Assembly: GCA_026122225.1 (NCBI GenBank)
Contig: JANEZZ010002699.1
Coordinates: 62,001 to 126,000 of the forward strand
DNA: 64,000 bases
Origin: Heloderma charlesbogerti
Lineage: Eukaryota; Chordata; Lepidosauria; Squamata; Helodermatidae
Direction: 5' to 3'
Part shown: one piece after another, positions 4,391 to 63,864 of the stretch
Layout of the letters: every line of letters begins with the position of its first letter
How positions within the stretch are numbered: position 1 is the first letter of the stretch
Position numbers and translations under genes: made by a program
The notes under the pieces: generated by a model
Database searches by the model: none
The model's input: the letters and a program-made list of their open reading frames with translations, nothing else
What the model was told of the DNA's origin: nothing

Positions 4391-4399
4391 GAGGCCTAA

Positions 4400-6495: not shown

Positions 6496-6499
6496 TGTG

Positions 6500-36290: not shown

Positions 36291-36295
36291 TAAAA

Positions 36296-39905: not shown

Positions 39906-40318
39906 GAAGCACTTCGAGCATCTCTACACCAGCCTAAAATCCCTCATAAGCCTTTAAAGAGGGCTTTCTGCTTCCGTTTTAAATGCAGGATCACAATGGA
40001 CTCCCTTTGCACATGCTTCCTTTCCCCCCTCCTGTTTCCCCCTCCTTCTGCTTCATATCTGCGTCTTCCATATGTTTCATTGATCTAGGTCCCCTTCTTG
40101 CGGCTTTTCCTTTTTCACGGAGAGAACTCAAGCAGGACACAAGTGCGGTAATTTAATACCTCATTATCTCTGATCTTTGTCACAATGGAATAAGGGTCAT
40201 TGAGTGCAGGAGACACCCTGGAGGTTCACGATGTCATCTAAAGGGCCCGCAAACTTCTGTGAGTGAGCAATCTCAGTAGCAGGATAAAAAGCTCCGCTTG
40301 AAGAAGCTCTACGTCTCT

Positions 40319-40380
40319 GTTGTGCAAGCGGTGGGTCCTGTGTGCATAATGGAATCGGTGAGACCCACCGCTTGCGCAAC
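40319..40380. repeat. 19-bp inverted repeat hairpin
   Basis: The arms 40,319-40,337 and 40,362-40,380 ('gcaagcggtgggtc' and 'gacccaccgcttgc' cores) are complementary except for one base, with a 24-nt loop. A degraded form is at about 5,490-5,545 in block A. Confidence 0.7.
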
Positions 40381-40602
40381 AAAATGGGCAGAGCGCAAGA
40401 GAATCGGTGGGGGTGTAAGTGCCTCACTGGATTTCACCCTTGCTCATGGAACTGACCAAAGGGTAGGTACCCCTAGGAACTCTAGGTCATGCCATGCAGG
40501 ACTTCGTGCGAGATGTGTGTATTGTTGAACCAATCGGAAACAGTGACCACAGTGATATTGGATGTACATGTATTGTTTGTTTATTTGTTTATTTAAAACA
40601 TT

Positions 40603-40890
40603 TCTAGAGCCTCGTGTGGCACAGAGTGGTAGGCGGCAGTATTGCAACCGAAACTCTCCCCACGACCTGAGTTCGATCCCAGCGGAAGCCAGGTCTCGGG
40701 TAGCCGGCTCAGGTCGACTCAGCCTTCCATCCTTCCAAGGTGGGTAAAATGAGTACCCAGCTTGCTGGGGAAAGGTAGTCACGACTGGGGAAGGCAATGG
40801 CAAACCACCCCACTACAGCCTGCCATGAAAACGCCAGCGCAAGCGGCGTCCCTCTAGGGGTCAGTAATGACCCAGAGCTTGCAGAGGAGG
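40603..40890 (+). mobile_element. tRNA-derived SINE
   Basis: A polymerase III A-box-like 'tggcacagagtggtaggcgg' and a B-box 'gagttcgatcc' are spaced as in a tRNA. A body with 'ggtagccggctcaggtcgac' and 'ggcaatggcaaaccacccc' follows. A CTTT microsatellite tail follows directly. It is absent from the matching place in block A. Confidence 0.8.
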
Positions 40891-40892
40891 AA

Positions 40893-40947
<55 letters not shown>
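40891..40947. repeat. (CTTT)n microsatellite
   Basis: About 14 consecutive TTTC units form the tail of the SINE. The open frame across it is an artefact. Confidence 0.95.
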
Positions 40948-40949
40948 AC

Positions 40950-41600
40950 ATTTCTATCCTGCCCTATATCATTAAGATCTCAGGGCAGCATACAGATAAA
41001 ACCAATTTAAACTGTATGAAACAAATAATTTAAACACCTAAAGACATATTAAAGTATTAAACAAGCTAAGACCAGTTAAAATCTAAAACAATGAAACACG
41101 TAAAACAATGTGCCGGGGAATGCATTTAGCCCTCCAAGGCTTTGGTAAAAAGCCATGCTTTTACTTGGCAGCGAAATGAGACCAATGTCTGCACCAACTG
41201 GGCCTCCAAGGGGAGGGCATTCCACAACTGGGGTGTTACAGCAGAGAAGACCCTCTCCCATGTCCCAACATAGTGTATGTCTCGTACTGGTGGGACGCGA
41301 AGAAGGCCTCCTCCAACAGATCTCAGTTCTCAGGCAGGCATATATAGGGGGAGGTGCTCCCTCAAATATCGAGGTCCCAAGCCAGCACCAAAACCTTGAA
41401 TTCAGACTGGAAGTGTATTGGCAGCCAGTGCAATTCCTTTAAAACTGGTGTTATATGATTTTGCTGAGGTGTTCCTGTCAGCAGTGTAGCTGCTGCATTT
41501 CGCACTAGCTGCAACTTCCAAGTCATCTTCAAGGGCAGCCCTACGTAAAGTGCATTGCAATAGTCTAATCCAATCCATTGCAATAGTCTAATATCCAATA
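40950..41600 (-). mobile_element. L2-clade LINE 3' part
   Basis: The ORF2 C-terminal region reads minus at 41,598-41,362 (DYCNALYVGLPLK, LVRNAAATLLTGT, ITPVLKELHWLP). The 3' untranslated end is at about 40,950-41,080. It has stops and is inactive. Confidence 0.75.
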
Positions 41601-41689
41601 CTGAAGTGTAAAATTGCTGAGGAAGTCTAACATGGTCAAATTTGATTCTGAAAGAGGAAACCTCTAAAGAGGAAGTTGAAAGGGGTACT

Positions 41690-42080
41690 CAATAGGGTTA
41701 TCTCTTGCCAAAATCCTTGGAGCTTACCGAAAACCACAACAATAGTAACTCAACTAAAATGTATACTGCCTGTCAGGAAAGGTGGCACCAAGTCCAAGAG
41801 GTCACCAGCCTGGTTAAAAGTTGTGCCAAGGAAGCTGTCAGAGAAAAGGAAGTCTTGCCCAAATGAGGAGAACATAAAGGAAAACAAACTTGCTCAAAGG
41901 AGGTGAAAAACACGCAATGTGTGATGCAAAACTTTGTTTTGAGGTCCACATTGCTAAGAACTCCAAAGCCAATAATAAGGAATTATTTAAATATATCAGA
42001 AGCAGGAAACCAGCTAGGGAGGCAATTGGACCGCTGGATAACAATGGAGTTAAAGGAGTACAAAAGGAAGATAAGGGTGG
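41690..42080 (+). mobile_element. CR1 LINE ORF2 linker fragment
   Basis: This is the block B counterpart of 5,812-6,160. Broken frames match the CR1 endonuclease-RT linker. It ends where a miniature-element arm begins (42,075). Confidence 0.6.
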
Positions 42081-42140
42081 GATCCTATGCATGTTTAGAA
42101 AGAAAAAGTCCTACAACTCCCAGCATTCCCCAGCCTGAGG
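42075..42140. mobile_element. Single arm of hairpin miniature element
   Basis: 'gggatcctatgcatgtttag' followed by 'gtcctacaactcccagcatt' matches the left arm of 18,323-18,453. Confidence 0.6.
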
Positions 42141-42670
42141 GGAATGCAGTTAGGAGGGCTGGCAAAGGAAGGAGGGCTGGGACACTACCTCAAGTTGGGT
42201 GCAGAATTCAAAGCGCTGGTTATGAACCATAAAGCCCCATCTGGCTTGGGAATGGGCTACCCGAAAGACCGCTTTCTCCCGTATGAGCCTGTCTGGGTCC
42301 GAAGACCATTGGGAGAAGCCCTTTTTTCGAGACCAGTGCCTTCACAGGTGCATTTAGTGGTGACCCATGAGGGGGCCTTTTCAGAGGCTGCTCCCAGACT
42401 GTGGAACTCCCTCCCAAAGGAGGCTGAGTCTGCTCCTTCTCTGCTCTCCTCGTGATGGCAGGCAAAGACCACTCCATTCAAAAAACCTTTGGCTTGTAAG
42501 TGGGTCGGTTGGGTTGGGTGCTGGTTTTTTACTTTCAGTCTGTAACTGTTATCTCTTATTGTATTTCAATGTATTGTGTTATTGTTTTAATCCCTTTCAA
42601 TTCTGCCTGTAGGATGCCTCGAGTGCCATTTTTTTTGGTAGAAAGCAAGGGTACAAATAAAATAAATAAA
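42140..42670 (+). mobile_element. L2-type LINE 3' end (block B)
   Basis: It carries an ORF2 C-terminus (HEGAFSEAAPRLWNSLPKEAE) and a 3' end closing in 'acaaataaaataaataaag'. It is paralogous to 6,160-6,495, with a longer retained 5' part. Confidence 0.7.
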
Positions 42671-43330
42671 GAAATTGTGCGTGCATTCGTGTATATCCGG
42701 GGTGGGGAAGGTGTGGCTGTCCTGATGCTGTTGGACTGCAACTCGTTCCTCATCATTGGGTGTGCTTTTGAGGGTGGAGGAACTTGCAGCCCAACAGTAC
42801 CTAGAAGGCCACATGTCCTCAAAGATTTTCTTGATCCTGGCTCTTTTGTGCATGCTTCTTTAAGAAAAGTGAGGCCAAGCTCACCTTCTCCCCCTCACTG
42901 ACCCATGGCAGAAGTTGGAGCCATGTCCGTGAGCTCTCGCAAACATGTTTTTCTCCAGCTCCGCATCTGTGCCTCAAGCCATGCGGAGCCTATGAAGTTG
43001 CCGAGGTGACACTTCCCCTTGGAATTATCAAAAGCATAGTGATTTATTTTAATGTTTGCCAATGCTCAAGAGAGCTTACTGGAGCTGGCCTTTGAGACCA
43101 ATAAAATCAACATCAGAATCAAGGACAATGTCAGGAAACCTCTTGCACCATGCCTGAAAAGCTTGGTGCATAAAATACGTCCTGTGCAATCAAGAGCTTG
43201 AGCTAAGATCTAGGGCAGGTTGGATGACCATGCCTGTGGTGTAGTTTAGTATAACCCCCCTTCCCAGTCAGAATGTATTATATTTGCAAAGACACTGCAG
43301 CTGTGGTCTTGCAAGTTTCTTTATGCCTTC

Positions 43331-43336
43331 TAATTA
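43331..43336. promoter_or_regulatory. TAATTA core upstream of duplicated V2R exon 1
   Basis: It lies 67 bp before the ATG, exactly as at 7,174-7,179. Confidence 0.25.
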
Positions 43337-43397
43337 GCTGTCTATGGAGGTGAAAGGAGCAGTCACAAGGGAGTTCTAGGAAGCGGGTCGGCCCAGA

Positions 43398-43618
43398 ATG
43401 ATATCAGTGCTGCTGGTCTTGCTGCTGCTGCTGCTGCCCCGTGCAGCCCAGGAGATGCAGAAGGCAAAATGTCCCTGGAATCTGATCGGAGGTCAAACTG
43501 GAGCATCGAACTATTACCGGCCAGGAGACTACCTCATTGGCGGAGTCATGTCTTCACAGTATTTTCAGAGTCAACAACCATACGTCTTTTCCAAGTCCCC
43601 GTTACACAGGGTTGATCC
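43398..43618 (+). pseudogene. V2R exon 1, second copy (partial duplicate gene)
   Basis: This 221-nt exon has an intact ATG, signal peptide and CC|GTAAGT donor. It differs from 7,241-7,461 at five bases, changing two residues (I to M in GGVMSSQYF, K to S in FQSQQPY). No exon 2-6 sequence follows in the next 20 kb, which is filled by retrotransposons and a Maverick. In the first copy exon 2 is only 2.4 kb away. It is best read as an orphan exon from a partial duplication. The remaining exons could lie beyond 64,000, so pseudogene status is an inference. Confidence 0.8.
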
Positions 43619-44700
43619 GTAAGTAATGCTGGTTTAGTGCTGCCCAACCTCCACTCCCATTGTCCCCATTTATTGGACCCTGCCCATATTTCCTGGTGCC
43701 CCTGGTCACCTCGAGGCATTTGCTTTCCCCTGTTGTGCCTTTTGAGGGAGAATTCGGACGTTGTAAACATGAAGGGAAGACTTAGTTCAGCGTGATCATG
43801 TATGGCTGGATAACCAGGGTTTCCTGGCATAGTTTGAACCAAAATAACAACCACCCTCTTGGCTTTGAAAGAAAGACAAGACACAGGCTGGCGCCAGGGT
43901 GGCTTTTTCTGGCTGGTGGTCTAAACACAGACATCCCACAGCTTCCCCCTCCATCCCCAGCATAACTGTCTGTTATGAGGCAGCAAATGTACTTGGGTGT
44001 ATCTGACTTGCAGCTATTCTTCAGTAAGTAGAGTGAATCTCCAGGCAGGGCTGTGAAATCCCCTGCCTGAAAACCCGGAGGGCTGCTGGCACTCAGTGTT
44101 GGCAATTCTGGGCTAGATGCACCAACAGTGTGGCTCAGTCTGAGGCTGCTTCCCGTGTTACCAAATCCATTGTGCAATTCAGCGTTGGGGGAGAGGTGGG
44201 GCAGGGTGAATGCGCAACTTGTGTTCTTTGGCAGCACAAACTGGGTGTTAGTTACCACTGTTTTTCTTAGATAGGTTGGAGCGCCAGTGATTTTTTTAGT
44301 TTCCCCAGTCCCTCTGTGACATCACCTCCTGCGAGGTATCTGGAGAATTGATGCCCCATGCCTGACTTTCCCATTGCAGTGAGGCTGAAGGAAGAATGGA
44401 GAAAACCCCAGGGAGAAAAACAAGTGATCAGGCAACTGTCTTTCTGCAGTGAAAAGAAGGTCTCTCCTTTACAGCTTGGTGCAATGATAATTTGAGATAA
44501 CAGTTTCCAGTTGGAACTCTGCACATTTTTATCTCCAGGTGCAAAGTAGTTTATGCAACTTCAAAATGGAAATCTATAATACCTTTATGCAAGTGCAGTG
44601 CAGCCTGGGACTCAATTTGGCTCAAGGAGATTGTACACTGGACTCTGTATATAAGATTATTATCTTGTCTCTTCTCTTCTCTTCTCTTCTCTTCTCATCT
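43619..44700. other. Duplicated intron 1 sequence, no gene seen
   Basis: Homologous to 7,462-8,640 without the BovB-type insertion. There is a short CTTCT-type run at about 44,673-44,698. No coding content is recognised. Confidence 0.5.
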
Positions 44701-44704
44701 TATC

Positions 44705-45134
44705 AACATACAAACATAAGAACAACCATGCTAAATCAGACCAAGGGTCCAACTAGTCCAGCACTCTGTTCAGACAGTGGCCAAACAGCTGGACCCAGTG
44801 ATTTTTTTTAACTTCCAATATGTCAATAAGGCCTAGAATGTAATCTCTTGTCACCACTATTTGCCTGAGTTCCTCTGAATCTCTTCCTGAAAATATCAAT
44901 TAAGGCATGTATATCTAATCTTTTTCTTCTGCAGTGAAGACAGAAAAAAAATATAGTTTCTCTGCAATCTTCTTATCCTCCTTTAGTACTCCTTTAACTG
45001 CATTATCCAGTGATCCAATTGCCTCCCTTGCTGTTCTCCTGGTTCTGATGTATTTGAAGAATTCTTTATTTTTAGCCTTGATGTTATTAGCAATATGCAC
45101 CTCAAAATGCCTTTTTTCCATCCCTTATTACTAA
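44705..45134 (-). mobile_element. CR1 LINE fragment, cut at the duplication limit
   Basis: It has the same internally deleted CR1 structure as 8,640-9,069 (3' end joined to ORF2 linker, minus 45,121-44,915 with [17 protein letters not shown]). It stops abruptly at 45,134, while the block A copy continues. Confidence 0.75.
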
Positions 45135-45905
45135 GGCTGTGCACGGACCCCCCACTTTGCTTCGGATGCCAATTTGGACCTTCTGAAGCAGCCTCACTTC
45201 ACTTCTGACTGATTTCACCCTATCTGCTTCGCTTCAGATTCAGATCTGAAGCAAGATTTGGATATGCAACTTATTCAGATATGATGTTTTCCCTTCGACT
45301 TGCGTTGGAAAACAGAAATGGCCATTTGTGGTTTTCATGAAACCTGGGGCCCTGGCTGCCCCCATGGAGCTGATTCTACCTGCCAAATTTCAGACAGTTT
45401 ATCCAAGTAGTTCATGTGCTCGGCACAGGTAAAATGTGCTGTTCTCAGAAACTCAAACCAAAGGTCATAATCAGAGAATTTAGGTGTTTAAGCAGTGATT
45501 AGAAAGAGGACACTATCCCTAATCTCTGCTGTAGGTTTCTTTGAAGTGCAAATAACCCCTCTCCCCTAGTACTACTTTCCGATTCAGCTTCATAGCGGAT
45601 GACCTCAGGCTCTCTTTGGCTGAATGGAAGACACATTACCTGGGAAAACAGGTTGGCAGGGTAGTTTTTGTGCTATGTGGCTTTTTCAATGAAAACTCTC
45701 AAAGCAAAGAGCTCTAACTTTTCACTGGTTGCAGAGGAGGGTCCAAGTAGCACCTCACCCTCCTCTGCCCCTGCCAAGTCCCTGAAGATGCCTAATATTG
45801 GGCTTGCTTTGCCACACAGTGTAATATTAAATTTAAATAATATATGTTAATATGTGTCCTTGTGTGTAGTGCTTTGCCACACACCGATGGCTTGACCACA
45901 ACACA
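45135..45905. other. Unassigned sequence right of the duplication
   Basis: It starts 'aaggctgtgcacggacc' and looks like an interspersed repeat, but I cannot assign a family. No convincing coding frame. Confidence 0.3.
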
Positions 45906-46350
45906 AGCGCACACACACGCACACACACACACACACGAGCAAAGGAAAAGCAAATACAGAACTACCTTCACACAAAGAAAAGGGTCTTTAATTTTTTGGG
46001 GGGAATATAGAGTTCAAAACTGTGAAGGGAAGGAAAGGAATACAGGGATTAAGAAGGGCAGGGTAGGTGGGTGGGGAGCCAAGAACAAGGAAAGGAAAGG
46101 AAAGTGTGTGTGTGGGTGTGTGTGTGTATTCAAGAAAGAAAGAAAGAAAGAAAGGAAGGAAGGAAGGAAGGAAGGAAGGAAGGAAGGAAGGAAAAGCAAA
46201 TACAGAACTACCTTCATGCAAAGAAAAGGGTCTTTAATTTTTTTTTGTGGGGGAATATAGAGTTCAAAACCGGGAAGGGAAGAGAAGGAATACAGGGATT
46301 GAGAAGGGCCGGGTGGGTGGGTGGGGAGCCAAGAACAAGGAAAGGAAAAT
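45906..46350. repeat. (CA)n and (GGAA)n microsatellites between two copies of a tandem unit
   Basis: Bases 45,944-46,104 and 46,190-46,350 are two copies of the same unit ('ggaaaagcaaatacagaact' to 'caaggaaaggaaa'). A (GT)n and (GAAA/GGAA)n run separates them, and a (CA)n run lies to the left. Lysine/glycine-rich open frames here are artefacts. Confidence 0.85.
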
Positions 46351-46394
46351 ACTTATTAGTAACAATAATAAACAATAAAAGCTTCATATAATAT

Positions 46395-46812
46395 CCTGTC
46401 TACTAGAATCTCACAACTGGAAGCATTTACACGAAGAGTGAACCTACGCATTATTGGCATCAAATAATTACCCAATGATGTAAGCCTGTCTAAATTCTTG
46501 GATAAATTCCTGCATGAACTACTTGCTTTGCCATCTGATTATTTACTTGACATTGAGCATGCATTCTGTGCTCCAAGTTCGATGCATGGGGTTAAAGGGA
46601 CTGCTGTTACTGTTATAGTTCAGTTTGCAAGAGTTTCTACAAAAAATTACATCCTGCGTGTGGCAAGAGGGAGGGGAGTTCTTCTTTGGGGGGCCAAAAC
46701 AAGTTAAGATGATGCTATTTCTGGATTACACTAAAGAAATTGCTGATAAAAGAAGGAAATTCACTAAGGTGAGAAATCAAGCAAGACAAATGAATTTACA
46801 ATACCACATAAA
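46395..46812 (+). mobile_element. L1 ORF1 fragment
   Basis: Plus-strand frames match the L1 ORF1 at 14,343-14,965: FLDKFLHELLALPSDY and [18 protein letters not shown]. Small indels break the frame. It is interrupted at 46,813 by a BovB tail. Confidence 0.75.
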
Positions 46813-47299
46813 ATGTTGTTGTTGTTCAGTCGTTAAGTCATGTCCGACTCTTCGTGACCTCATGGACCACAGCACACCAGGCCCTCCTGTCCTCCGCTCT
46901 CTCCCAGAGTGTGCTCAAGTTCATATTCATTGCATCGGTGATGCTACCTAGCCATCTCATCCTCTGCCGTCCCCTTCTCCTTTTGCCTTCCATCTTTCCC
47001 AGCATCAGGGCCTTTTCCAGGGAGTTTTCTCTTCACATTAGGTGGCCAAAATATTTGAGCTTCAGCTTCAGTATGTGTCCTTCCAATGAGCAGTCAGGGT
47101 TGATTTCCTTTAGGATTGACTGATTTGACCTCCTTGCAGTCCAGGGGACTCGTAAGAGTCTTCTCCAGCACCACAGTTCGAAAGCATCAATTCTTCGGCG
47201 CTCAGCCTTCCTTATAGTCCAGCTCTCACAGCCATATGTTGCTACTGGGAAAACCATAGCTTTGATTAGATGGACCTTTGTCGGCAAGGTCCATCTAAT
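46813..47299 (-). mobile_element. BovB 3' fragment, 5'-truncated
   Basis: Tail (GTT)n at the left, then the last 160 codons of BovB read on the minus strand (47,287-47,033). The truncated 5' end is followed by a perfect 14-bp inverted copy of its own last bases (47,265-47,278 versus 47,286-47,299). Confidence 0.85.
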
Positions 47300-47375
47300 T
47301 GGCTTTCATGATTGGCCAACCTGGTGGAGTGTCTGTGCCCCACCGCCAACTTTTCCCACTTCACTCTGCAACGGA

Positions 47376-50335
47376 CCCTTGTTGTTGTTCAGTCATTCAG
47401 TCATGTCCGACTCTTCATGACCCCATGGACCATAGCATGCCAGGCCTTCCTGTCCTGCGCTCTCTCCCGGAGTGTGCTCAAGTTCATATTCATTGCATCG
47501 GTGATGCTATCTAGCCATCTCATCCTCTGCCGTCCCCTTCCCCAGCATCAGGGTCTTTTCCAGTGACTTTTCTCTTCGCATTAGGTGGCCAAAATATTTG
47601 AGCTTCAGCTTCAGTCTCTGTCCTTCCAATGAGCACTCAGGGTTGATTTCCTTTAGGATGGACTGATTTGACCTCCTTGCAGTCCAGGGGACTCGTAAGA
47701 GTCTTCTCCAGCACCATAGTTGGAAAGCGTCAATTTTTCGGCGCTCAGCCTTCCTTATAGTCCAGCTCTCACAGCCATACATTACTACTGGGAAAACCAT
47801 AGCTTTGATTATGTGGACCTTTGTCAGCAAGGTGATGTCTCTGCTTCTTACTATGCTGCCTAGGTTGGCCATAGCTTTCCTCCCAAGGAGCAAACGTCTT
47901 TTAATTTCATGGCTACAGTCACCGTCTGCAGTGATCTTGGAGCCCAAGAAAATAAAATCTGTCACTGCTTCCATTTCTTCCCCTTCTATATGCCAGGAAG
48001 TGATAGGGCCAGATGCCATGATCTTAGTTTTTTAAATGTTGAGTTTCAAACCAGCTTTTGCACTCTCCTCTTTCACCCTCAACAATAGGCTCTTTAGATC
48101 CTCTTTGCTTTCTGCCATTAGGGTGGTATCATCTGCATATCAGAGGTTGTTGATAATTCTCCCGGCAATCTTAATTCCGACCTGTGATTCATCCAACCCA
48201 GCGTTTCTCATGATGTACTCTGCATATAAGTTAAATAAGCAGGGTGACAATATGCAGCCTTGTCGTACTCCTTTCCCAATTTTGAACCAATCGGTTGTTC
48301 CATGTCTGGTTCTTACTGTTGCTTCTTGACCCTCGTACAGGTTTCTCAGGAGACAGGTAAGGTGGTCTGGTACTCCCATAACTTTAAGAATTTGCCACAG
48401 TTTGTTGTGATCTACACAATCAAAGGCTTTAGCGTAGTCAATGAAGCAGAAATAGACACTTTTCTGGAATTCTCTTGCTTTCTCCATGATGCAGCGAATG
48501 TTGGCGATTTGATCTCTAGTTCCTCTGCCTCTTCGAAACCCAGCTTGTACTTCTGGTAGTTCTCGGTTCGCATACTGCTGAAGCCTAGCTTGTAGGATTT
48601 TGAGCATCACCTTGCTGGCATGTGAAATGAGTGCAATTGTGCAGTAGTTTGAACACTCTTTGGCATTGCCCTTCTTTGGAATTGGAATGTAAACTGACCT
48701 TTTCCAGTCTTGTGGCCACTGTTGAGTGTTCCAAATTTGTTGGCATATTGAGTGCAGCACTTTAACAGCATCATCTTTTAGGATTTTAAATAGCTCGAGC
48801 TGGAATACTGTCATCTCCGCTAGCTTTGTTGTTAGTAATGCTTCCTAAGGCCTACTTGACTTCACTCTCGAGGATGTCCGGTTCCAGTTCAGTGACCACA
48901 CTATCATGGCTATCAGGGACATTCAGATCTTTCCTGTATAGTTCTTCTGTGTATTCTTTCCACTTCTTCTTAATCTCCTCTGCTTCTGTGAGGTCCCTGC
49001 CTTCTTTGTCCTTTATCATGCCCGTCTTTGCACAAAACGTTCCCTTGAGATCTCCGATTTTCTTGAAGAGATCTCTAGTCTTTCCCATTTGTTGTTTTCC
49101 TCGATTTCTTTGCATTGTTCATTTAAGAAGGCCTTCTTGTCTCTCCTTGCTATTCTCTGGAACTCTGCATTCCGTTGGATATATCTTCCCCTTTCTCCCT
49201 TGCTTTTCGCTTCCCTTCTTTCGTCAGCTGACTTGTAAAGCCTCATCAGACAGCCACTTGGCTTTCTTGCATTTCTTTTTCTTTGGGATGGATTTCGTTG
49301 CTGCCTCCTGAACAATGTTACGGACCTCCGTCCATAGTTCCTCAGGCACTCTGTCTATCAGGTCTAATCCCTGAAATCTATTCCTCACCTCCACTGTATA
49401 TTCATAAGGGATATGATTTAGGTCATACCTGAATGGTTTAGTGGTTTTCCCTACGTTCTTCAATTTAAGCCGAAATTTTGCAACAAGAAGCTCATGATCT
49501 GAGCCACAGTCAGCTCCAGGTCTTGTTTTGACTGACTGTATAGAGCTTCTCCATCTTTGGCTGCAAAGGACATAATCAATCTGATTTCGATATTGACCAT
49601 CTGGTGATGTCCATGTGTAGAGTCGCCTCTTGTGCTGTTGGAAAAGAGTGTTTGCTATGATCAGCATGTTCTCTTGGCAAAACTCTATTAGCCTTTGCCT
49701 GCTTCATTTTGTACACCAAGGCCATGCCTGCCTGTTATCCTGGTGATTTCTTGACTTCCTACTTTAGCATTCCAATCCCCTATGATGAAGAGGACATCTT
49801 TTTTTGGTGTTAGTTCTAGAAGGTGTTGTAGGTCTTCATAGAACCGATCAACCTCAGCTTCTTCGGCCTCAGTGGTTGGGGCATAGACTTGAATTACTGT
49901 GATGTTGAATAGCTTGCCTTGGATTCGTACTGAGACCATTCTATCGTTTTTAAGATTGTACCCCAGTACTGCTTTTCCCACCCTTTTGTTGACTATGAGT
50001 GCTGCTCCATTTCTTCTCAGTGATTCTTATCCACAGTAGTAGATATGATGGTCACCTGAATTAAATTCGCCCATGCTTGTCCATTTTAGTTCGCTGATTC
50101 CCCAGATGTCGATGTTCAATCTTGCCATCTCATGTTTGACCACCTCCAGCTTACCTGGATTCATTGATCTTACATTCCAGGTTCCTAAACAATATTGTTC
50201 TTGACAGCATCAGATTTTCTTTTCACCACCAGACACATCCACAGCTGAGTGTCCTTTCGGCTTTGGCCCAGCCGCTTCACTCTTCCTGGCGCTACTTGGA
50301 AATATCCTCTGCTCCTCCCCAGTAGTATATTTCTC
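47376..50335 (-). mobile_element. BovB LINE, nearly full length, inactive
   Basis: All BovB domains are present on the minus strand but in separate frames: endonuclease (49,981-49,688 and 49,667-49,224), linker (49,315-48,852), RT (48,814-48,140) and C-terminus (48,019-47,507). Frameshifts lie near 49,690, 49,230, 48,830 and 48,030. The RT box is altered (the 'cagaggttgttg' stretch lacks the usual YADD continuity), and a deletion near 47,540 removes part of the C-terminus. The 5' end is truncated at about 50,335. To its right begins the Maverick-associated region. Confidence 0.9.
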
Positions 50336-50686
50336 TTTCTGTGTTGGTACATTGTAAAAAAAAAAAGGCTCTTTCTCTAAAACTGGTCTATCTTTTTTTC
50401 CTATCCATAGAACAGTCCCCAAAAGTGGTCTTTATGTCTCAGGTCTATCAAGAAGGCATGTATTTTTAGTTAATGGTGCATGTTTTAAGGGGTTTTGTTA
50501 CCAGTAAGTGCCAGTAGGTGGTGATGCAGGATCACAAATAGGTCTCCTTTGGCTTATTGCTGATAGGTTTACCTTTTTTTTTTTTTAAATACTTTCGATA
50601 ATCTCACAACTGAAATATACTAAGACAAAGTACATTAGGTAATATTTCAAAATTTATATTATCATTCAGAACTGTTGCTGCAATCT
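50336..50686. other. Sequence between BovB and the Bcl-2-like gene
   Basis: A/T-rich, with A- or T-runs at 50,356-50,366 and 50,573-50,586. It may contain the 3' end of the Bcl-2-like gene and the eroded left part of the Maverick. No terminal repeat can be recognised because the other end lies outside the window. Confidence 0.3.
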
Positions 50687-51450
50687 CTATGCAGAGAACA
50701 ACAGCCATTTTAGGGAAAAATAGTGCATGCAAATCGTTTTGATTTTTGTCTTCACGTTGTAGGAATGTGTAGGAAGCCAGGTGTTTCTGTCTTCAAACGT
50801 CCTTACAAATCCTTTTTCCTGCAATAAAAAGAAAATAGTAGCTTTATCATACCCTATTTTTATGGAAGGTAAAACATTATGGTGGGGTCTTTTTTCCTTT
50901 TTTTTAATACAAGATCAGTATAGCTTCTTTATCATCTTAGAACCCACACCTAGCTGAAATACCCCCCCAACCTCCACCCCGTAATAAATATTAAAAGAAA
51001 GCACATCTGTAGCAAGGGTTGTTTCAAACTTACCCAGCCTTTATGACCCATAATCCAATTTGCTTTGGTGTTTATGATATAGGCAGTGATAAAATTAGCA
51101 AGTTCTTCTATATTCTGTCTTGTTAGAGGCCCATCATGTGTCTGTAGTTTCTTGGGGATTAGACTTCCAAACAGAAAAATGGTTAAAATCCATCCCCAAC
51201 TGATTTTTCCATCAGCAAATTCAGACTGCATCACCACAGTAAAAGTGTGGAACGCATCAGCCAGACTATGGATTTGGAGGTCATTGATGAGGGGGGTTAA
51301 CAGTTCTTCAATATCGTCTTGAATTGTAGAGACTGTTTTTTGCAAAATTAATAATGTTTTGCATTTTGCTATTTTATGGGGTATTTGTCCACAAGCTGTG
51401 CTTAAATAAGCATGAACTAGCATAGCCGTTTCCCCCTCCATTCTTCTCAT
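50687..51450 (-). CDS. Bcl-2 family (BCL2A1-like) two-exon gene, cargo of the Maverick
   Basis: Exon 1 is 51,450-51,034 (139 codons) and exon 2 is 50,818-50,687 (43 codons plus TAG). They are joined by a 215-bp intron with consensus GTAAGT donor and a pyrimidine-rich TTTTTATTGCAG acceptor, phase 0. The predicted 182 residues compare with about 175 in BCL2A1. Visible features are BH3-like helix region (residues about 36-50), BH1 with EFADGKISWG (about 77-86) and BH2 WIMGHKGW (132-139). The intron follows BH2 directly, the conserved BCL2-family position. Exon 2 has the short A1-type tail with GFV..FE.....W spacing. Bcl-2 proteins of this type bind BH3 ligands and block apoptosis. The usual BH1 Arg is Trp here, which may weaken binding. 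Without splicing the frame runs on to 50,950. It could be a host-derived copy carried by the element or a stray host duplicate. Confidence 0.8.
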
Positions 51451-52077
51451 GGGTGCTGCTAGAAATGGTCAAAAGGCTCTCACACCATACGTAGCGCTGG
51501 GGGTGGAGCAAAGCTTGAGGCAAGACTCTACATGCCTTTGGGGTGACTAAACTAGCACCTTTTCCTTATTTGTTGTTGTTGTTGTTGTTCAGTCGTTCAG
51601 TCGTGTCTGACTCTTCGTGACCCCATGGACCATAGCACGCCAGGCCTTCCTGTCCTGCGCTCTCTCCCGGAGCGTGCTCAAGTTCATATTCATTGCATCC
51701 GTGATGCTATCTAGCCATCTCATCCTCTGCCATCCCCTTCTCCTTTTGCCTTCAGTCTTTCCCAGCATCAGGGTCTTTTCCAGAGAGTTTTCTCTTCGCA
51801 TTAGGTGGCCAAAATATTTCAGCTTCAGCTTCAGTATCTGTCCTTCCAATGAGCAGTCAGGGTTGATTTCCTTTAGGATGGACTGATTTGACCTCCTTGC
51901 AGTCCAGAGGACTTGTAAGTGTCTTCTCCAGCACCACAGTTCGAAAGCATCAATTCTTCGGCGCTCAGCCTTCCTTATAGTCCAGCTCTCACAGCCATAC
52001 ATTACTACTGGGAAAACCATAAAAAAACACTCTCTGCCTGTAAAAATCAAAGGACTCCTAAGAAAAGCTGCTCTCCA
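51451..52077. promoter_or_regulatory. Divergent promoter region between Bcl-2-like gene and polB, split by BovB
   Basis: Leaving out the BovB fragment (51,571-52,021), only about 178 bp lie between the two opposed start codons. Any promoters of both genes must be here or inside the genes. No TATA box is obvious. The close head-to-head pairing supports both genes belonging to one element. Confidence 0.4.
51571..52021 (-). mobile_element. BovB 3' fragment inserted in the Maverick
   Basis: The (GTT)n tail at 51,571 is followed by the BovB C-terminal codons read on the minus strand (to about 52,020, ending in the [14 protein letters not shown] region). 5'-truncated. It separates the start of polB from the Bcl-2-like gene. 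Confidence 0.9.
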
Positions 52078-55000
52078 ATGGCAGATTCTCAGGATGCCTC
52101 ACAACTTTCTGAAGCATGCACAGAGGATGAGCCTCCAGAGGTGGCGTCTCAAGATACCTCACAGTCTTCTGAAGCTTCCAGGGATGCTTCAGGGTTGGAC
52201 CAAACCCCACCCATAAATAACACAAATCAGGACCAACCCCAGCAAGTATATGCAGAATTTGTGAGGAGGTGGGAATGGAGGCAGGAAAGATTCAGGTCAA
52301 TACACATAGGTGAAGAATTTAGATTTGTTAATTTAGAACATGTAACATCATTCTCACAGGCTGTGACTGCATTATACACAGCAATCCAGCAAATCCTGGG
52401 TGATGTTAATAGGGGAATTTCTCCTCAAGATTTCGTTCAATTAAGGCTGGACGGCAGTGGCCTTAATTGTCCTCTTCTTTCAGTTAAAAGACATAGGGAT
52501 ATTTTGCATGTAGAAGATTTTCTTTCTCAGATCAGTAATCTCATGCAAAGCCATGCTGAAACATGTGGGGATGTTACGCTGTGGTTGATTGTTACAATTG
52601 TGAGGGCTCCACGGAGGGGAGGAAATCGGAGTAGGAAAATAGGTTCTCTCCCCAACAGTCAAATCATCCTTAGAAAATGACAACACTTGGTAGATCTAAA
52701 TTACACAGGCACCAATCTCTGCTTTCCTGGGGGTCTTTTAGCCGTAATGGCCGAGAGGACACCCACAGATGCAGAATGGTTGACCGCCGCCAGACAGTTA
52801 CATACGGAGCTTGGTTGGTCTGAACAGAAAAAAGTAGCCCTCAGTGACATTTCATTGATTGAAAACCATTTAAGTGTCAACATTCAAGTCATACGTTTTG
52901 CAAAAAAAAGGTTGGGGGCTATTTAAAGTACCAGGGCCTAGGTACCCCCAAACCTATATGATGCTGCTACATGACGAGCATTATTATGGGGTACGTAGTG
53001 TAAAAGTGGTGTTTGGAGCTCAAAACTATTGTGAAATATGCAGTACAATCTTTACCCACAGTCACAGTTGTCTATATATGTGCAGGCTCTGCTTGAATGC
53101 AGATTGTGCTGTAAATGTCGGTAAAATGAAGAGGTGCGGATATTGTCGGATGAACTGCAGATCCAGCGCCTGCTTAAATAGACATAGAGAATTGGCCTTA
53201 GAGGGTAAAGTAAAATGTGTCTTTAGAGAGTATTGTGAATACTGTCAGACTTTCCAGAAAGGTGATCATGACTTTGGGCGTTGTCCAGGAAGGTGGTGCA
53301 CTGCCTGTTAGGGGTTTATTATATATGGTGATAAGCATGAGTGCTATATGGGGCATCTTAAGAAGCCTGAAGTGTCTGTGAAATATGTGTTTTATGACTT
53401 TGAAGCACACCAGTCTTCAGGGTTTCATGTTCCTAATTTCTGCTTTGCAAATGCGTTTGTGGGTGAAACTGTAGAAAGCTTTAAGGATAAGCCAGGTAAG
53501 GGCAAGAAGAATAGAAAGCGGCGTGTGAAAGTGCATGGGGATGTAAGCCCGTGGGCCATGGCTGGCAAAATGTGGGAGTTTAAGGGTGATTCCTGTCTCT
53601 CTGATTTTATCAAGACCTTCACAGACAGTGCGCAGTTCAAAGGGTGCACTTTTATAGCCCATAACTCAAAGGGGTATGGTGGTTACTTTATTCTCAGCCA
53701 GTTGATAAAAGAGAAACTGACTGTAGATCTAAGTACTCAAGGGGGGAAATTGCTATGTATCACAGTGAAGGGGCTAGATATAAAATTTATCGATTCACGC
53801 TGTCATCTACCCATGGCCCTCTCAAAGCTACCAAAAGCCTTGGGTTTTACCGGCAGCAAGGGCTACTTCCCACACTGTTTTAACAAACCTGAGAATTGGG
53901 ACTATGTGGGCCCGCTGCCTAAAGCAGAGGACTATGGTGCCCAAAACATGATTCCTGGGGAGAGAGAGGCTTTTTTAGCATGGTATGAGGAGAACAAGTC
54001 AAAAATTTTGAAATGCAGAAGGAGTTGATGTTTTACAGTAGGCAAGATGTTAATATTTTGGAGCAGGCATGCACCAAGTACTGACACGAAATCATGGAAC
54101 TGACACAGACAGTGAGAGCGTTTTGGGAAGGTAAGAAGTATGTGAAGAAAAGGTTAGCAATAGATCCATTCCAATACCCCACTTTGGCTAGTACATCTTT
54201 TGCGATGTATAGGTTTACGTTTCGGACGGAGTACACCATTACCATACCCCCACCAGATAATGATCACCGGCAGTGTAAACGGTTTTCTACCCCTGAAATT
54301 CAGTGGTTGAGCTACACAGAGCATAAAGAAAAGATTCAGATTCAGCACGCCTTAAAGGGTGGGGAATTCAAAGCTGGCCCTTATTTTTTAGACAGCTATG
54401 CTGTCATAGATAATAAGAAGACAGCCTTTGAATTTCACGGCTGCTTTTGGCATGGGTGTGTAGTGTGTTATTCTCCAGAGGATAAGAACCCCCTGCAGGG
54501 TAAAGCATATGAATTCCTGTACAACTCCACACAAAAAAGGGATGCTGAACTGAAACTGATGGGGTTTGAAGTCAGGACTATATGGGAACACGAGTGGAGG
54601 CTGATGTTAAAAACAGATGAGGACCTCAAGAGTTTTCTTGCTGGTGCTCATTTTCCAGACCCTCTAGAACCTAGAGACACTCTCTTTGGGGGGCGTACTA
54701 ATGCGGTCTGTCTGTATGATAAACCTGGAGATGGGGAATGGATTCATTACTATGATTTCACAAGCCTGTATCCCTATGAGAACAAGAATAAAGCATACCC
54801 TTGTGGTCACCCCGAAATAATTTATGAGAACTTTGAACTGCTCTCAGATTACTTCGGGATTGCAGAGGTTAAAATTTACCCACCCTGAGGTCTTTTCTTC
54901 CCGGTCCTCCCTACCAAGGTGGGCAGTAAGCTCATGTTTGCCCTGTGTGCAGCTTGCGCAGCAAGGCATCAGCAGGGAACGTGTAAACATCCTGATGAGG

Positions 55001-56031
55001 AATGGGCTCTGCTAGGAACATGGTGCACCGTTGAGCTGAATGCAGCTGCAGAAAAGGGCTACAAGGTTGTGAAAATTTATGAAGTCTGGCATTTTGAAAA
55101 GCGGACCACCCGTTTGTTTTCAGATTACATTGACATGCACCTTTGCCAAACAGGAGGCTTCAGGTTACCCACACTGTGTCAGCGCAGGTGTGTCAGCGCA
55201 GAAGATAAACAGCGATATATAGCTGATTATCTCCAAAATGAAGGGGTGGTGTCACGCCCCGACGAGATCGCTGTGAACCCCGCAAAATGGCAAATGGCAA
55301 AATTATTTTTAAATTCTCTGTGGGGGAAATTTGGCCAGAGGACAAACTTGCCTAACACACAAGTGGTAAGAGACCCTGATGAGTTATTTCAGATTCTGTT
55401 TCCTGATGCTTATGAGCATCATAATAATAAATTATGAGCATTATTATGATAAAATGTGCGAATTTATCGATGCTGATGCAGCATGCGTGTCCTGGCAACA
55501 TTCTGAAGACTGCATGATAACTCTAGGTAGGAAGAATGCGTTCATAGCTGCCTTTACAACAGCATATGCTTGGCTGAAGCTCTACGCTTTGCTGGATGGC
55601 TTGCAAGAGCATTGTTTATAACACGACACAGATTCTGTGATATTTGTGAGTAGGGAGGGGCAGTGGATGCTCCCCCTCAGAGATTACTTAGGAGACCTCA
55701 CAAGTGAAATCCCTGCAGATGAATTTATCTCAGAGTTTGTGTCGGCTGGTCCTAAGTCTTATGGTTTTAAACTTTCAGGAGAAGGGACAGTTGTTTTGAA
55801 GGTCAAAGGCATTACACTGAACACCGCTAACTGTGAAAAAAGGAATTTCAACAGTCTCAAAGACTTAGTTTTCGCCTACGTCTCAGACAGGGAGCACTGA
55901 CTGCCTTGTGAGATTGTCGTACAGCAGCCAGGTATTGTAAGGAACAAAAGCCATTGGACTTTGGAAACTAAGACTCTGAGGAAAACTCAAAAGGTGGTAT
56001 ATGATGAAAGAGGTATTACTAAAGGGTTTAA
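52078..56031 (+). pseudogene. Maverick protein-primed family B DNA polymerase (polB), broken
   Basis: This replicates the element's linear DNA in relatives. Domain order is an acidic Ser/Gln-rich N-terminus (52,078), a cysteine-rich zinc-like region (about 53,020-53,310), exonuclease motif I (YVFYDFEA, 53,390) and motif II (AHNSKGYGGYF, 53,657; the usual Asp is Gly). Then come the DPFQYPTLAST region (54,160), Pol A (DFTSLYPY, 54,757), Pol B (LNSLWGKFGQR, 55,310) and Pol C (DTDSVIF, 55,625). In-frame stops lie at 52,678, 53,309, 54,082, 54,886, 55,619 and 55,898, and frameshifts near 52,905, 54,005 and 55,430. An L2 insertion follows at 56,031, and the last few codons with the stop are at 59,939-59,962. 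No functional product is possible. Confidence 0.93.
56026..56031. repeat. Target-site duplication of the L2 in polB, left
   Basis: GTTTAA recurs at 59,935-59,940. polB coding sense continues across the two copies without loss, which fixes the insertion point. Confidence 0.6.
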
Positions 56032-56617
56032 TTTATTTAATTTATTTATTTATTAAATTTATTAATCGCCCATCTGACTGGTCACCCAGCCACTCTGGGC
56101 GATGTACAACCCACCATAAAACAATTTAAAATAATAAAATTTTACCAATTTTTTTTTTTTTAAATACCCTAACCCACCCCAAATGCCTGCCTGAACAACC
56201 ACGTTTTTAATGCACGACGGAAGCTCATTAATGAGGGGGCATGACGGAGTTCCCTAGGGAGGGAGTTCCACAGAGTGGGGGCCACCACAGAGAAGGCCCT
56301 CTCCCTCGTCCCCACCAGTCTAGCTGTCCTGGCTGATGGGACAGAGAGAAGGCCATCTGAGGCTGATCTTGTTAAGCGGCCTGTCTGGTGTTGCTGGAGG
56401 CGCTCCTTAAGATAGGCTGGGCCGGAACCATATAGGGTTTTAAAGGTCAAAACCAACACCTTGAATTTGGCCTGGAAAACAACTGGTAACCAGTGCAACT
56501 CCTTCAGCACTGGAGTGATGTGATCTCGCCGGCGGCTGCCTTTAATCAGGCGAGCCGCCGCGTTCTGTACCAGCTGCAGCTTCCGAACCGTCTTCAAGGG
56601 TAACCCCACGTACAGCG

Positions 56618-59600
56618 CATTGTTGTTGTTGTTCAGTCGTTCAGTCGTGTCCGACTCTTCGTGACCCCATGGACCATAGCACGCCAGGCCTTCCTGTCCT
56701 GCGTTCTCTCCCGGAGCGTGCTCAAGTTCATATTCATTGCATCCGTGATGCTATCTAGCCATCTCATCCTCTGCCGTCCCCTTCTCCTTTTGCCTTCAGT
56801 CTTTCCCAGCATCAGGGTCTTTTCCACAGAGTTTTCTCTTCGCATTAGGTGGCCAAAATATTGGAGCTTCAGCTTCAGTATCTGTCCTTCCAATGAGCAG
56901 TCAGGGTTGACTTCCTTTAGGATGGACTGATTTGACCTCCTTGCAGTCCAGGGGACTCGTAAGAGTCTTCTCCAGCACCACAGTTCGAAAGCATCAATTC
57001 TTCGACGCTCAGCCTTCCTTATAGTCCAGCTCTCACAGCCATACATTACTACTGGGAAAACCATAGCTTTGATTAGACGGACCTTTGTCGGCAAGGTGAT
57101 GTCTCTGCTTCTTACTATGCTGTCTAGGTTGGCCATAGCTTTCCTCCCAAGGAGCAAGCGTCTTTTAATTTCAGGGCTACAGTCACCGTCTGTGGTGATC
57201 TTTGAGCCCAAGAAAGTAAAATCTGTCACTGCTTCCATTTCTTCCCCTTCTATATGCCAGGAAGTGATAGGGCCAGATGCCATGATCTTAGTTTTTTTAA
57301 TGTTGAGTTTCAAACCAGCTTTTGCACTCTCCTCTTTCACCCTCAACAAGAGGCTCTTGAGATCCTCTTTGCTTTCTGCCATTAGGGTGGTATCGTCTGC
57401 GTATCTGAGGTTGTTGATAATTCTCCCGGCAATCTTAATTCCAACCTCTGATTCATCCAACCCGGCATTTCTCATGATGTACTCTGCATATAAGTTAAAT
57501 AAGCAGGGTGACAATATGCAGCCTTGTCGTACTCCTTTCCCAATTTTGAACCAATCGGTTGTTCCATGTGTGGTTCTTACTGTTGCTTCTTGACCCTCGT
57601 ACAGGTTTCTCAGGAGACAGGTAAGGTGGTCTGGTACTCCCATCACTTTAAGAATTTGCCACAGTTTGTTGTGATCCACACAATCAAAGGCTTTAGCGTA
57701 GTCAATGAAGCAGAAATAGACGTTTTTCTGGAATTCTCTTGCTTTCTCCATGATGCAGCGAATGTTGGCGATTTGATCTCTAGTTCCTCTGCCTCTTCTA
57801 AACCCAGCTTGTACTTCCGGTAGTTCTTGGTTCGCATACTGCTGAAGCCCAGCTTGTAGGATTTTGAGCATCACCTTGCTGGCATGTGAAATGAGCGCAA
57901 TTGTGCGGTAGTTTGAACACTCTTTGGCGTTGCCCTTCTTTGGAATTGGAATGTAAACTGACTTTTTCCAGTCTTGTGGCCACTGTTGAGTGTTCCAGAT
58001 TTGTTGGCATATTGAATGCAGCACTTTAACAGCATCATCTTCTAGGATTTTAAATAGCTCGGCTGGAATACTGTCATCTCCGCTAGCTTTGTTGTTACTA
58101 ATGCTTCCTAAGGCCCACTTGACTTCACTCTCGAGGATGTCCGGCTCAAGTTCAGTGACCGCACTATCATGGCTATCAGGGACATTCAGATCTTTCCTGT
58201 ATAGTTCTTCTGTGTATTCTTGCCACCTCTTCTTAATCTCATCTGCTTCTGTTAGGTCCCTGCCTTCTTTGTCCTTTATCATGCCCGTCTTTGCACAAAA
58301 CGTTCCCTTGAGATCTCCAATTTTCTTGAAGAGATCTCTAGTCTTTCCCATTCTGTTGTTTTCCTCGATTTCTTTGCATTGTTCATTTAAGAAGGCCTTC
58401 TTGTCTCTCCTTGCTATTCTCTGGAACTCTGCATTCAGTTGGGTATATCTTCCCCTTTCTCCCTTGCTTTTCGCTTCCCTTCTTTCGTGAGCTACTTGTA
58501 AAGCCTCATCTGACAGCCACTTGGCTTTCTTACATTTCTTTTTCTTTGGGACGGATTTTGTTGCTGCCTCCTGAACAATGTTACGGACCTCCGTCCATAG
58601 TTCCTCAGGCACTCTGTCTATCAGGTCTAATCCCTGAAATCTATTCCTCACCTCCACTGTATATTCATCAGGGATATGATTTAGGTCATACCTGAACGGT
58701 TTAGTGGTTTTCCCGACGTTCTTCAATTTAAGCCGAAATTTTGCAAGAAGCAGCTCATGATCTGAGCCACAGTCAGCTCCAGGTCTTGTTTTGACTGACT
58801 GTATGGAGCTTCTCCATCTTTGGCTGCAAAGGACATAATCAATCTGATTTCGATATTGACCATCTGGTGACGTCCATGTGTAGAGTCGCCCCTTGTGCTG
58901 TTGGAAAAGAGTGTTTGCTATGATCAGCATGTTCTCTTGGCAAAACTCTATTAGCCTTTGTCCTGCTTCATTTTGTACACCAAGGCCATGCCTGCCTGTT
59001 ATCCCGGTGATTTCTTGACTTCCTACTTTAGCATTCCAATCCCCTATGATAAAGAGGACATCTTTTTTTGGTGTTAGTTCTAGAAGGTGTTGTAGGTCTT
59101 CATAGAACCGATCAACCTCAGCTTCTTCGGCCTCAGTGGTTGGGGCATAGACTTGAATTACTGTGATGTTGAATGGTTTGCCTTGGATTCGTACTGAGAT
59201 CATTCTATCATTTTTAAGATTGTACCCCAGTACTGCTTTTCCCACCTTTTTGTTGACTATGAGTGCTACTCCATTTCTTCTAAGGGATTCTTGCCCACAA
59301 TAGTAGATATGATGGTCACCTGAATTAAATTCGCCCATGCTTGTCCATTTGAGTTCGCTGATTCCCAAGATGTCGATGTTCAATCTTGCCATCTCATGTT
59401 TGACCACCTCCAGCTTACCTTGATTCATTGATCTGACATTCCAGGTTCCTAAACAATATTGTTCTTTACAGCATCGGATTTTCTTTTCACCGCCAGACAC
59501 ATCCACAGCTGAGTGTCCTTTCGGGTTTGGCCCAGCCGCTTCACTCTTTCTGGCGCTACTTGGAAATACCCTCTGCTCTTCCCCAGTAGCATATTGGACA

Positions 59601-59692
59601 CCTTCCGACCTGAGGGGCTCATCTTCCGGCGTCATCTCTTTTAGCCTTGTGATACGTTCCATGGGGTTTTCTTGGCAAGAATACTGGAGTGG
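56618..59692 (-). mobile_element. BovB LINE nested in L2, slightly 5'-truncated
   Basis: The (GTT)n tail at 56,618 and a body to 59,692 lack only about the first 140 bp of the full element. The ORF is intact (see CDS). No clear target-site duplication is visible, and compared with other L2 copies a few bases seem lost at the junction. Confidence 0.95.
56633..59690 (-). CDS. BovB endonuclease-reverse transcriptase, intact frame, lacks N-terminal ~30 codons
   Basis: It has the same domain set as the copy at 29,339-32,482: endonuclease ([22 protein letters not shown]), reverse transcriptase ([24 protein letters not shown]) and C-terminal RTE domain, without stop or shift. The frame stays open upstream into L2 RT codons, giving a fortuitous L2-BovB fusion frame that starts at 59,902. 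A truncated 5' end means loss of the element's own promoter region, so autonomous activity is doubtful despite the open frame. Confidence 0.92.
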
Positions 59693-59934
59693 GTAGTCTA
59701 AACGAGAGGAGACCAGGGCATGTACTACCGATGGGAGCAGATGGTCGGGAAGGAAGGGGCGCAGCCGCCGTATCAGATGGAGTTGATACAGCGCTCTCCA
59801 GCTCACAGCTGACACCTGAGCCTCCATGGACAGCTGGGAGTCCAAAATGACCCCCAGGCTGTGGACCTGGTCTTTCAAGGGTAGCCGTACCCCATTCAAC
59901 ACCAGGTCAACATCCCCCAGCCTTATGGTTTTAT

Positions 59935-60849: not shown

Positions 60850-61129
60850 GGCACCACCATGCCAGAGGAAAGCCATTTTATGTGCGGCATCTGATGACCT
60901 GATTGCAGTCATCTCAGAAATAGCACTCAGTACTTTAAAAGGCAACATTCCTCTATCTCCCCGACAGGTACATACAGTAAGAAAGAAATGTAACCTTATT
61001 AAAAGCCTGAGTAACAAGAAAGTCTCTCTGAGAAGAAAGAAGCATCAGATGAAACAATCTGGTGGGTTTCTTGGACCGTTACTAAGTTTTGCAGTCCTTC
61101 TGCTCACCGTGTTTTTAGCCAATCAGTGA
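60800..61129 (+). CDS. Maverick small basic protein with hydrophobic C-terminus (virion cluster)
   Basis: This is a 109-residue intact ORF. The N-terminal two thirds are rich in Lys/Arg (KRNLALLKRLIKAP, KKVSLRRKKHQMK) and the end is a hydrophobic helix after QSGGFLGPLL. This pattern is typical of a conserved small protein next to Maverick capsid genes. Relatives have been likened to adenovirus core or membrane-active proteins, but the role is unproven. The stop TGA overlaps the start of the next gene (61,127-61,131). Confidence 0.7.
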   Translation: MSTCVKRNLALLKRLIKAPPCQRKAILCAASDDLIAVISEIALSTLKGNIPLSPRQVHTVRKKCNLIKSLSNKKVSLRRKKHQMKQSGGFLGPLLSFAVLLLTVFLANQ

Positions 61130-61833
61130 TGGAGTATGCTAAAAAGATGTATTTGGTCCCTAGCCACCAGCTGGAAAAATTGAAGGGTCCACCTCCTAAG
61201 GAGGAAAACATCAGAACTGCAGCAATCAGCTCACTAGATACTGGGATGCAGGGAATTCTCCACAGGAGTGACTTAAAAGAACATGAAAAAGCTAAACATT
61301 ATGCTTCTTTGCTTCAAAAATATCTAACTCATGTAAGACAGAGGGAGGCGGAGAAAGAAAACCTAAACCTGTTGTGGCTGAGGCATCTACCTCAGCCAAA
61401 ACAGGCCTCTGTGGAAGCATCAGTAATCTCTGACAATGTTTTCCAAGAAGTACTGGACAGTCTTCCTGTTAGATATAAGAACAATGCAAGGCTCCTATTG
61501 ATCAAAATGCAGCAAAACAGAGATGTTCCTTCGTGGGATAAGAAAGGAGCCTTTGTGTACAAGGGGGAGGCTATACCTGGTTCCAATATGCTGGATTTGG
61601 TGAAGGGGGTCACACAGACCCTGAAAACCAAGCGTGCCCCTAAAAGTTGGGATGTTTTTCTGAGTGCTCTGGCTGAACTAAATGTCCCAGCATCTGTAGT
61701 GGGTAATCCTGCCAATAGAGAAGCCCTGGACTACTTAAAGACCCCCAAAGGTGCGACGCCAATGTTGTTGCACACAGCTACGAGTGCTAAAAAACAAAAG
61801 CGGTCTGATGCTTCTACCTGGCTCAGCTTATAA
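61129..61833 (+). CDS. Maverick conserved protein of 234 aa (virion cluster, function unknown)
   Basis: The frame is open from ATG 61,129 to the TAA at 61,831. It has no signal peptide or membrane segment. It is lysine-rich, with a predicted helical N-terminal half (LKEHEKAKHYASLLQKYL). A C-terminal half follows with VLDSLPVRYKNNARLLL and FVYKGEAIPGSNMLDLV, motifs I associate with a protein found beside capsid genes in vertebrate and invertebrate Mavericks. The upstream in-frame GTG at 61,126 is less likely the start. Confidence 0.7.
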   Translation: MEYAKKMYLVPSHQLEKLKGPPPKEENIRTAAISSLDTGMQGILHRSDLKEHEKAKHYASLLQKYLTHVRQREAEKENLNLLWLRHLPQPKQASVEASVISDNVFQEVLDSLPVRYKNNARLLLIKMQQNRDVPSWDKKGAFVYKGEAIPGSNMLDLVKGVTQTLKTKRAPKSWDVFLSALAELNVPASVVGNPANREALDYLKTPKGATPMLLHTATSAKKQKRSDASTWLSL

Positions 61834-62547: not shown

Positions 62548-62548
62548 G

Positions 62549-63856: not shown

Positions 63857-63864
63857 GGTTGCGT

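Follow-up and report, generated by a model that had tools for sequence, protein, structure and literature searches.

A Bcl-2 gene derived from lepidosaur BCL2A1 is a regular gene of a Maverick family in Heloderma charlesbogerti

We analyzed a stretch of 64,000 nucleotides from the squamate Heloderma charlesbogerti (assembly GCA_026122225.1, contig JANEZZ010002699.1, positions 62,001 to 126,000 of the forward strand; hereafter, the window), which harbors a decayed Maverick element and, on its minus strand, a two-exon BCL2A1-like gene whose start faces the start of the decayed Maverick DNA polymerase gene, polB. This Bcl-2 gene is a regular gene of the Maverick family, because its linkage to polB and to a capsid-like gene recurs and two copies of the element with mapped ends enclose it; it derives from lepidosaur BCL2A1 and has retained the intron position of that gene. 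We consider it highly probable that we are dealing with an accessory gene of a squamate family of endogenous, adintovirus-like Mavericks, captured from BCL2A1 as DNA, kept under constraint, and serving in a BFL-1-like role.

RESULTS

Structure and identity of the gene

The features on which the argument rests are the following (positions are those of the window; BH, Bcl-2 homology; ORF, open reading frame).

51034 to 51450, minus strand: exon 1 (BH1 and BH2 region), 139 codons, ending in GHKGW, with Pfam Bcl-2 and PDB matches
50819 to 51033, minus strand: intron, 215 bp, GTAAGT...TTGCAG, directly after the BH2 Gly-Trp
50687 to 50818, minus strand: exon 2 (C-terminal helix region), 43 codons and a stop
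52078 to 55900, plus strand: Maverick polB, several ORFs in two frames, its start facing that of the Bcl-2 gene

Exon 1 covers the Pfam Bcl-2 family (PF00452) over its full length (E = 9.1e-17) and thus contains a BH1/BH2 Bcl-2 domain, and among the matches listed to solved structures in PDB, BCL2A1 is the best (9e-18), with Mcl-1 at 6.1e-10. Aligned to the BCL2A1 C-termini of five hosts, exon 2 outscores each of 500 shuffles in every case. On the polymerase side, two pieces both match DNA_pol_B_2 (1.2e-10), a third (7.7e-5) stays below the curated cut-off, and one piece finds its best protein match in Pogona vitticeps (59% identity over 84% of the length of the piece). A preliminary description of this DNA had placed a BCL2A1-like frame with BH1 and BH2 on the minus strand at 50687 to 51450, with its start facing polB. 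The frame, its orientation, and its identity are all confirmed here, and the coordinates are exact; the intron is an addition to that description.

Across the 22 copies of the gene listed, codon 1 of the frame is leucine in 19, serine in 1, and methionine in 2 (the window and L028), whereas codon 4 is methionine in all 22, so 51441 is the more likely start codon than 51450. The gene in the window, in which tryptophan replaces the BH1 arginine, adjoins a broken polB; it probably worked once and is now dead.

Recurrence across the genome and linkage to Maverick genes

A search of the same genome with the exon 1 protein gave 74 matches, merging to 58 loci, and a search with the Pfam Bcl-2 profile gave 58 matches. 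Identity is at least 54% at 52 of the 58 loci; the six below this value are the host gene on contig C25, C2986, C724:244302, C2955:3574102, and two loci on C1279. polB lies head to head with the gene within 20 kb at 33 of the 58 loci, for which the chance expectation is about 2.5e-4 per locus, a capsid piece lies on the same strand within 25 kb at 31, and one or the other is found in the expected place at 37. Every Bcl-2 match (74) and every polB match (93) entered these counts, as did 68 of the 105 capsid matches, the remaining 37 being extra pieces of loci already included, and the 58 loci contain probable duplicate contigs (C361 twice, C67 twice, C1279 twice, and C1344/C2690). An N terminus of polB is also present in the flank of four loci that had no polB match in the linkage count (C2100, C361:54943, C2078, and C2080). 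When 30 loci were fetched with their surroundings, the N-terminal part of polB was found in the flank of 8, the window included, and in most of the 30 sequence similarity continues past the gene in both directions.

Two side observations concern the assembly: C361:7409 and C361:54943, which share a short contig, are Bcl-2 matches that are nearly identical and oppositely oriented and have the look of duplicated assembly, and C1344 and C2690 carry equal-scoring Bcl-2 matches on two contigs and resemble duplicated assembly as well. We also noted more distant Bcl-2 copies, L055 (C1279), L056 (C2337), and L057 (C3049), which are 49 to 70% identical in the matched pieces and perhaps stem from Mavericks of older or different lineages; for the copy on C1279, a capsid match lies at a distance of 6.9 kb (53% identity over 57 residues).

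Copies with mapped ends

In two copies, both ends of the element could be mapped: inverted repeats end in (AGT)2//(ACT)2, and the 6-bp target duplications are exact. The copy on C2938 occupies 31342 to 50991, has AGTAGT termini, and is bordered by GATGAT on either side; the one on C724 occupies 812675 to 836826 and is bordered by AACCTG on either side. Counted from the left end, the Bcl-2 gene is reached after 5.8 kb in the former and 7.2 kb in the latter. Over about 460 bp, the terminal repeats have sequence in common with tandem repeats inside the element. A left end was also found in C1933, with 1 of 16 motif bases different, and a search for the left-end motif in the C2936 piece found none. 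The integrase of the C2938 copy (L054) combines rve (1.9e-11) and Chromo (1.7e-5) domains. In L060, the left accessory region of another Maverick copy, open frames at 1607 to 2020 and 2225 to 2758, with no Pfam match above the cut-off, are possibly further accessory genes.

In the window copy, similarity to other copies reaches 50326 to 50332 on the left; beyond that point, five left-hand pieces taken from other copies gave no match, and no left end was found. The motif AGTAGT at 50321 was considered as the element end and rejected, as it lies inside a match to a long interspersed nuclear element (LINE) at 47379 to 50331. On the right, the damaged end lies at about C2468:129389, beyond the window, with LINE sequence abutting.

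Origin from lepidosaur BCL2A1

The host's own BCL2A1, on contig C25, is about 45% identical to the Maverick gene and carries an intron in the same place after the BH2 Gly-Trp, with its exons about 3.4 kb apart. The window and the fetched loci have an intron in this position, with GT directly at the donor in 26 of the 30 fetched copies and an acceptor found in 27; in 25 of these 27 the intron measures 195 to 232 bp, and in two it is longer.

A protein search with exon 1 alone found no relative, and exon 1 together with two mammalian A1 rows gave 150 matches, of which the 120 listed form our BCL2A1 comparison set. The final tree comprises 12 of these 120 proteins, eight stop-free copies (the window and seven others), and the distant C1279 piece; two earlier trees, with 20 and 19 of the 120 proteins, agreed with each other in placement. 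The sampled Maverick genes form one clade (support, 98/96) inside lepidosaur BCL2A1 (100/99), with the squamate and tuatara genes as their nearest kin, and the grouping of the Maverick clade with squamates has a support of 92/93, which is not starred. In topology tests with approximately unbiased P values (p-AU), neither holding the four host lepidosaurs together (p-AU, 0.094) nor placing the Maverick genes as sister to their own host gene (p-AU, 0.489) was rejected, and therefore the tree does not single out a donor within the squamates.

These data uphold the earlier proposal of a host-derived gene carried by a Maverick, through both the tree and the two copies whose ends enclose the gene. 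Of the two outcomes that would have spoken against that proposal, absence of the gene from all related Mavericks is at odds with the 33 head-to-head loci and the two end-mapped copies of this same genome, and an origin by fresh, stray duplication of host BCL2A1 is at odds with the identity of 45% and with the separate Maverick clade.

Predicted fold

The model of exon 1 has a predicted local distance difference test score (pLDDT) of 84, and its top five PDB matches are all complexes of A1/BFL-1 with BH3 peptides (template modeling [TM] scores, 0.85 to 0.91), at 28 to 30% identity to mouse and human A1. A1/BFL-1 holds BH3 helices and blocks mitochondrial apoptosis. Together with the kept BH regions and the constraint described below, the predicted fold suggests that the Maverick gene would act against apoptosis.

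Constraint and decay

No stop was found in the matched exon 1 stretch in 21 of the 30 fetched copies, and a single gap interrupts exon 1 in 5 of the 30. Simulated neutral drift of a host A1 protein to 41% identity left 1% of sequences stop-free with indels ignored; since aligned repeats in the window have 115 gap openings per 1217 mismatches, indels would push the intact fraction below this value. Divergence was compared in 18 of the 30 copies, picked for an ungapped exon 1 and a found acceptor, and amounts to 0.057 in exon 1, 0.081 in the intron, and 0.113 in the 300 bp upstream. The lower value of exon 1, the stop-free copies, and a pN/pS of 0.56 (see below) count in favor of constraint. The ratio of nonsynonymous to synonymous change (pN/pS) and the BH1 residues were tabulated for 21 of the 30 copies, with L026, L030, L033, L036, and L038 to L042 left out.

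Other features of the window

The remaining features of the window element and its flank are the following.

50332 to 50686, no strand assigned: downstream flank of the Bcl-2 gene, matching another Maverick copy in pieces
51576 to 52021, minus strand: LINE 3' fragment inserted between the two gene starts, 97.5% identical to 56620 to 57065
61015 to 61833, plus strand: ORF on the polB-side strand, without Pfam match
62158 to 62583, minus strand: protease-like ORF, without Pfam match; weak similarity to SENP8 (E = 0.035) and to S273R of African swine fever virus (E = 1.1)
62821 to 63880, minus strand: major-capsid-like gene, two overlapping ORFs, without Pfam or PDB match

The plus-strand polB and ORF thus converge with the minus-strand protease-like and capsid-like ORFs, which gene order and familiar motifs mark as a putative protease and a putative capsid gene. 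The capsid-like piece at 62821 to 63525 is the one with 105 matches in the genome; the predicted fold of a capsid piece (pLDDT, 35) gave no usable likeness. The starts of the Bcl-2 gene and polB are 627 bp apart in the window, the LINE fragment included. An original spacing of about 175 bp was considered and rejected, as seven other copies show 1.03 to 1.40 kb.

Several copies of one LINE, 90 to 98% identical to each other, lie around and inside the Maverick (46814 to 47290, 47379 to 50331, 51576 to 52021, and 56620 to 59694), and one of them is nested in another repeat (56220 to 59814); these repeats are presumably BovB and CR1. To the left of the Maverick, the window contains receptor pieces (ANF_receptor and 7tm_3) at 16072 to 16935 and 33008 to 34021, which we take to be of the vomeronasal V2R type, and not the host BCL2A1 locus, which lies on contig C25. 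Finally, 3834 to 9037 and 39918 to 45116 align in five pieces in the same order at 78 to 91% identity, which points to a segmental duplication of about 5 kb.

DISCUSSION

Because the intron was kept, and a copy of an mRNA would have lost it, uptake as DNA is the simplest reading of the intron, which points to capture of nuclear DNA. The best reading of the data is an old capture of this kind, followed by fast evolution under constraint. An ancestral Maverick would have acquired BCL2A1 as genomic DNA rather than as an mRNA copy, with an intron that subsequently shrank or was already short at uptake, and during replication of the element as a virus, the protein would have evolved fast, yet within constraint. 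The groove of the Maverick protein, like that of BCL2A1/BFL-1, may hold the BH3 helices of death-promoting proteins and could thereby delay the death of the infected cell; the window copy would be a decayed fossil of this history. We lean, with some reservation, toward the wider proposal that a squamate Maverick took up intron-bearing BCL2A1 nuclear DNA, kept a short spliced intron, and retained the gene in no fewer than two lineages, represented by the main family and by the distant C1279 copy, which would mark a long-lived infectious reptile virus dependent on blocking cell death.

Several of our results weigh against the main reading, that of a captured and constrained accessory gene. Neither polB nor a capsid piece accompanies the gene at 21 of the 58 Bcl-2-like loci, and a Bcl-2 match is missing from the expected place at 25 of 58 polB loci. 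A pN/pS of 0.56 over 21 copies is not strong constraint, and exon 2 shows no sign of constraint, its divergence in the 18 copies (0.096, from a cut-out of fixed length) exceeding that of the intron (0.081). The BH1 arginine is kept in 10 of 21 copies, with tryptophan in 6 (the window included), glutamine in 4, and lysine in 1; among the 120 listed BCL2A1 proteins, a script located the motif in 113, of which 112 have NWGR, and 7 gave none. The tree was built without birds, turtles, and crocodiles. Lastly, no relative was found when viral contigs were scanned with exon 1 or an A1 alignment of three rows, with a piece or an alignment of polB, or with a capsid piece.

The variable BH1 arginine would be compatible with a protein that had another main task, such as binding Beclin, as some viral Bcl-2 proteins do, or acting on a different partner, or that had lost BH3 binding. 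We regard this as unlikely, given that the nearest sequence and fold are those of anti-apoptotic A1/BFL-1, that arginine is still the commonest residue, and that the copies are decaying. Less probable still is that the gene was captured once and then copied along as passive cargo without serving the element: the pN/pS value, the unconstrained exon 2, and the many broken copies would suit such a history, but identity to host BCL2A1 has fallen to about 45% with the frame kept in 21 of 30 copies, where neutral drift would leave about 1% stop-free even with indels ignored, and exon 1 diverges less than the intron. A present role of some copies as additional BCL2A1 genes of the host is very improbable, since no single copy stands out as conserved, even if the 21 copies that are stop-free in the matched exon 1 stretch could be read in this way. 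A host BCL2A1 paralogue merely adjoining a Maverick insertion, which the left end missing from the window and the host's possession of its own BCL2A1 might have suggested, can practically be dismissed and is refuted for the family by the same arrangement at 33 of 58 loci and by the gene lying between mapped ends in two copies.

The preferred reading, that of a captured and constrained Maverick gene, bears on the nature of the element itself. A regular, fast-evolving, in-frame gene against cell death fits a virus that infects cells, whereas a plain transposon has no obvious need of one. The virus life of vertebrate Mavericks has been argued from their genes, as particles have not been observed according to the part of PMC8097293 available to us, and in the available part of PMC9683012 only two intact elements are reported from amniotes. 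Our data suggest a past viral life for the Mavericks of this genome, in which the cells they infected were kept alive.

Compared with host BCL2A1 (A1/BFL-1), the Maverick gene is alike in sequence, fold, and intron position and differs in its identity of about 45%, in its many copies within a mobile element, and in an intron of about 215 bp compared to about 3.4 kb. With the Bcl-2 proteins of other DNA viruses (BALF1 and v-Bcl-2 of gammaherpesviruses, and those of iridoviruses and poxviruses), it shares the Bcl-2 fold, as the listed structural matches show, the best viral one being BALF1 of a dolphin gammaherpesvirus (3.8e-4, 16% identical); unlike them, it retains a host intron, and as far as the comparison shows, these are separate captures.

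The closest parallels lie among the elements themselves. Vertebrate Mavericks consist, in the account given in the available part of PMC8097293, of two converging modules (polB and capsid) with accessory regions at the flanks, and the family described here shares the converging modules, the second with a putative capsid gene, the flanking accessory regions, and the (AGT)2//(ACT)2 ends; Bcl-2 is not named among the accessory genes in that part. The integrase of the C2938 copy, with its C-terminal chromodomain, fits adintoviruses in its domain layout. The preliminary description had raised, with doubt, the presence of Bcl-2-like genes in adintoviruses, and the portion of PMC11071296 available to us does report anti-apoptotic homologues in mammal-associated adintovirus species. 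Elements of one kind thus carry a gene against cell death in both cases; that portion names neither Bcl-2, BCL2A1, nor an intron, and the comparison is one of descriptions. In the literature searched on Mavericks or Polintons and Bcl-2, the accessible text mentions BCL-2 in planarian retrotransposons and contains no report of a Bcl-2 gene in adintoviruses or Mavericks; the adintovirus description by Starrett et al. (2021) lies outside this literature and may name one. Anti-apoptotic genes of adintoviruses are thus already published, on the available text of PMC11071296, and the BCL2A1 gene of this Maverick family is a new and well-documented case among them.
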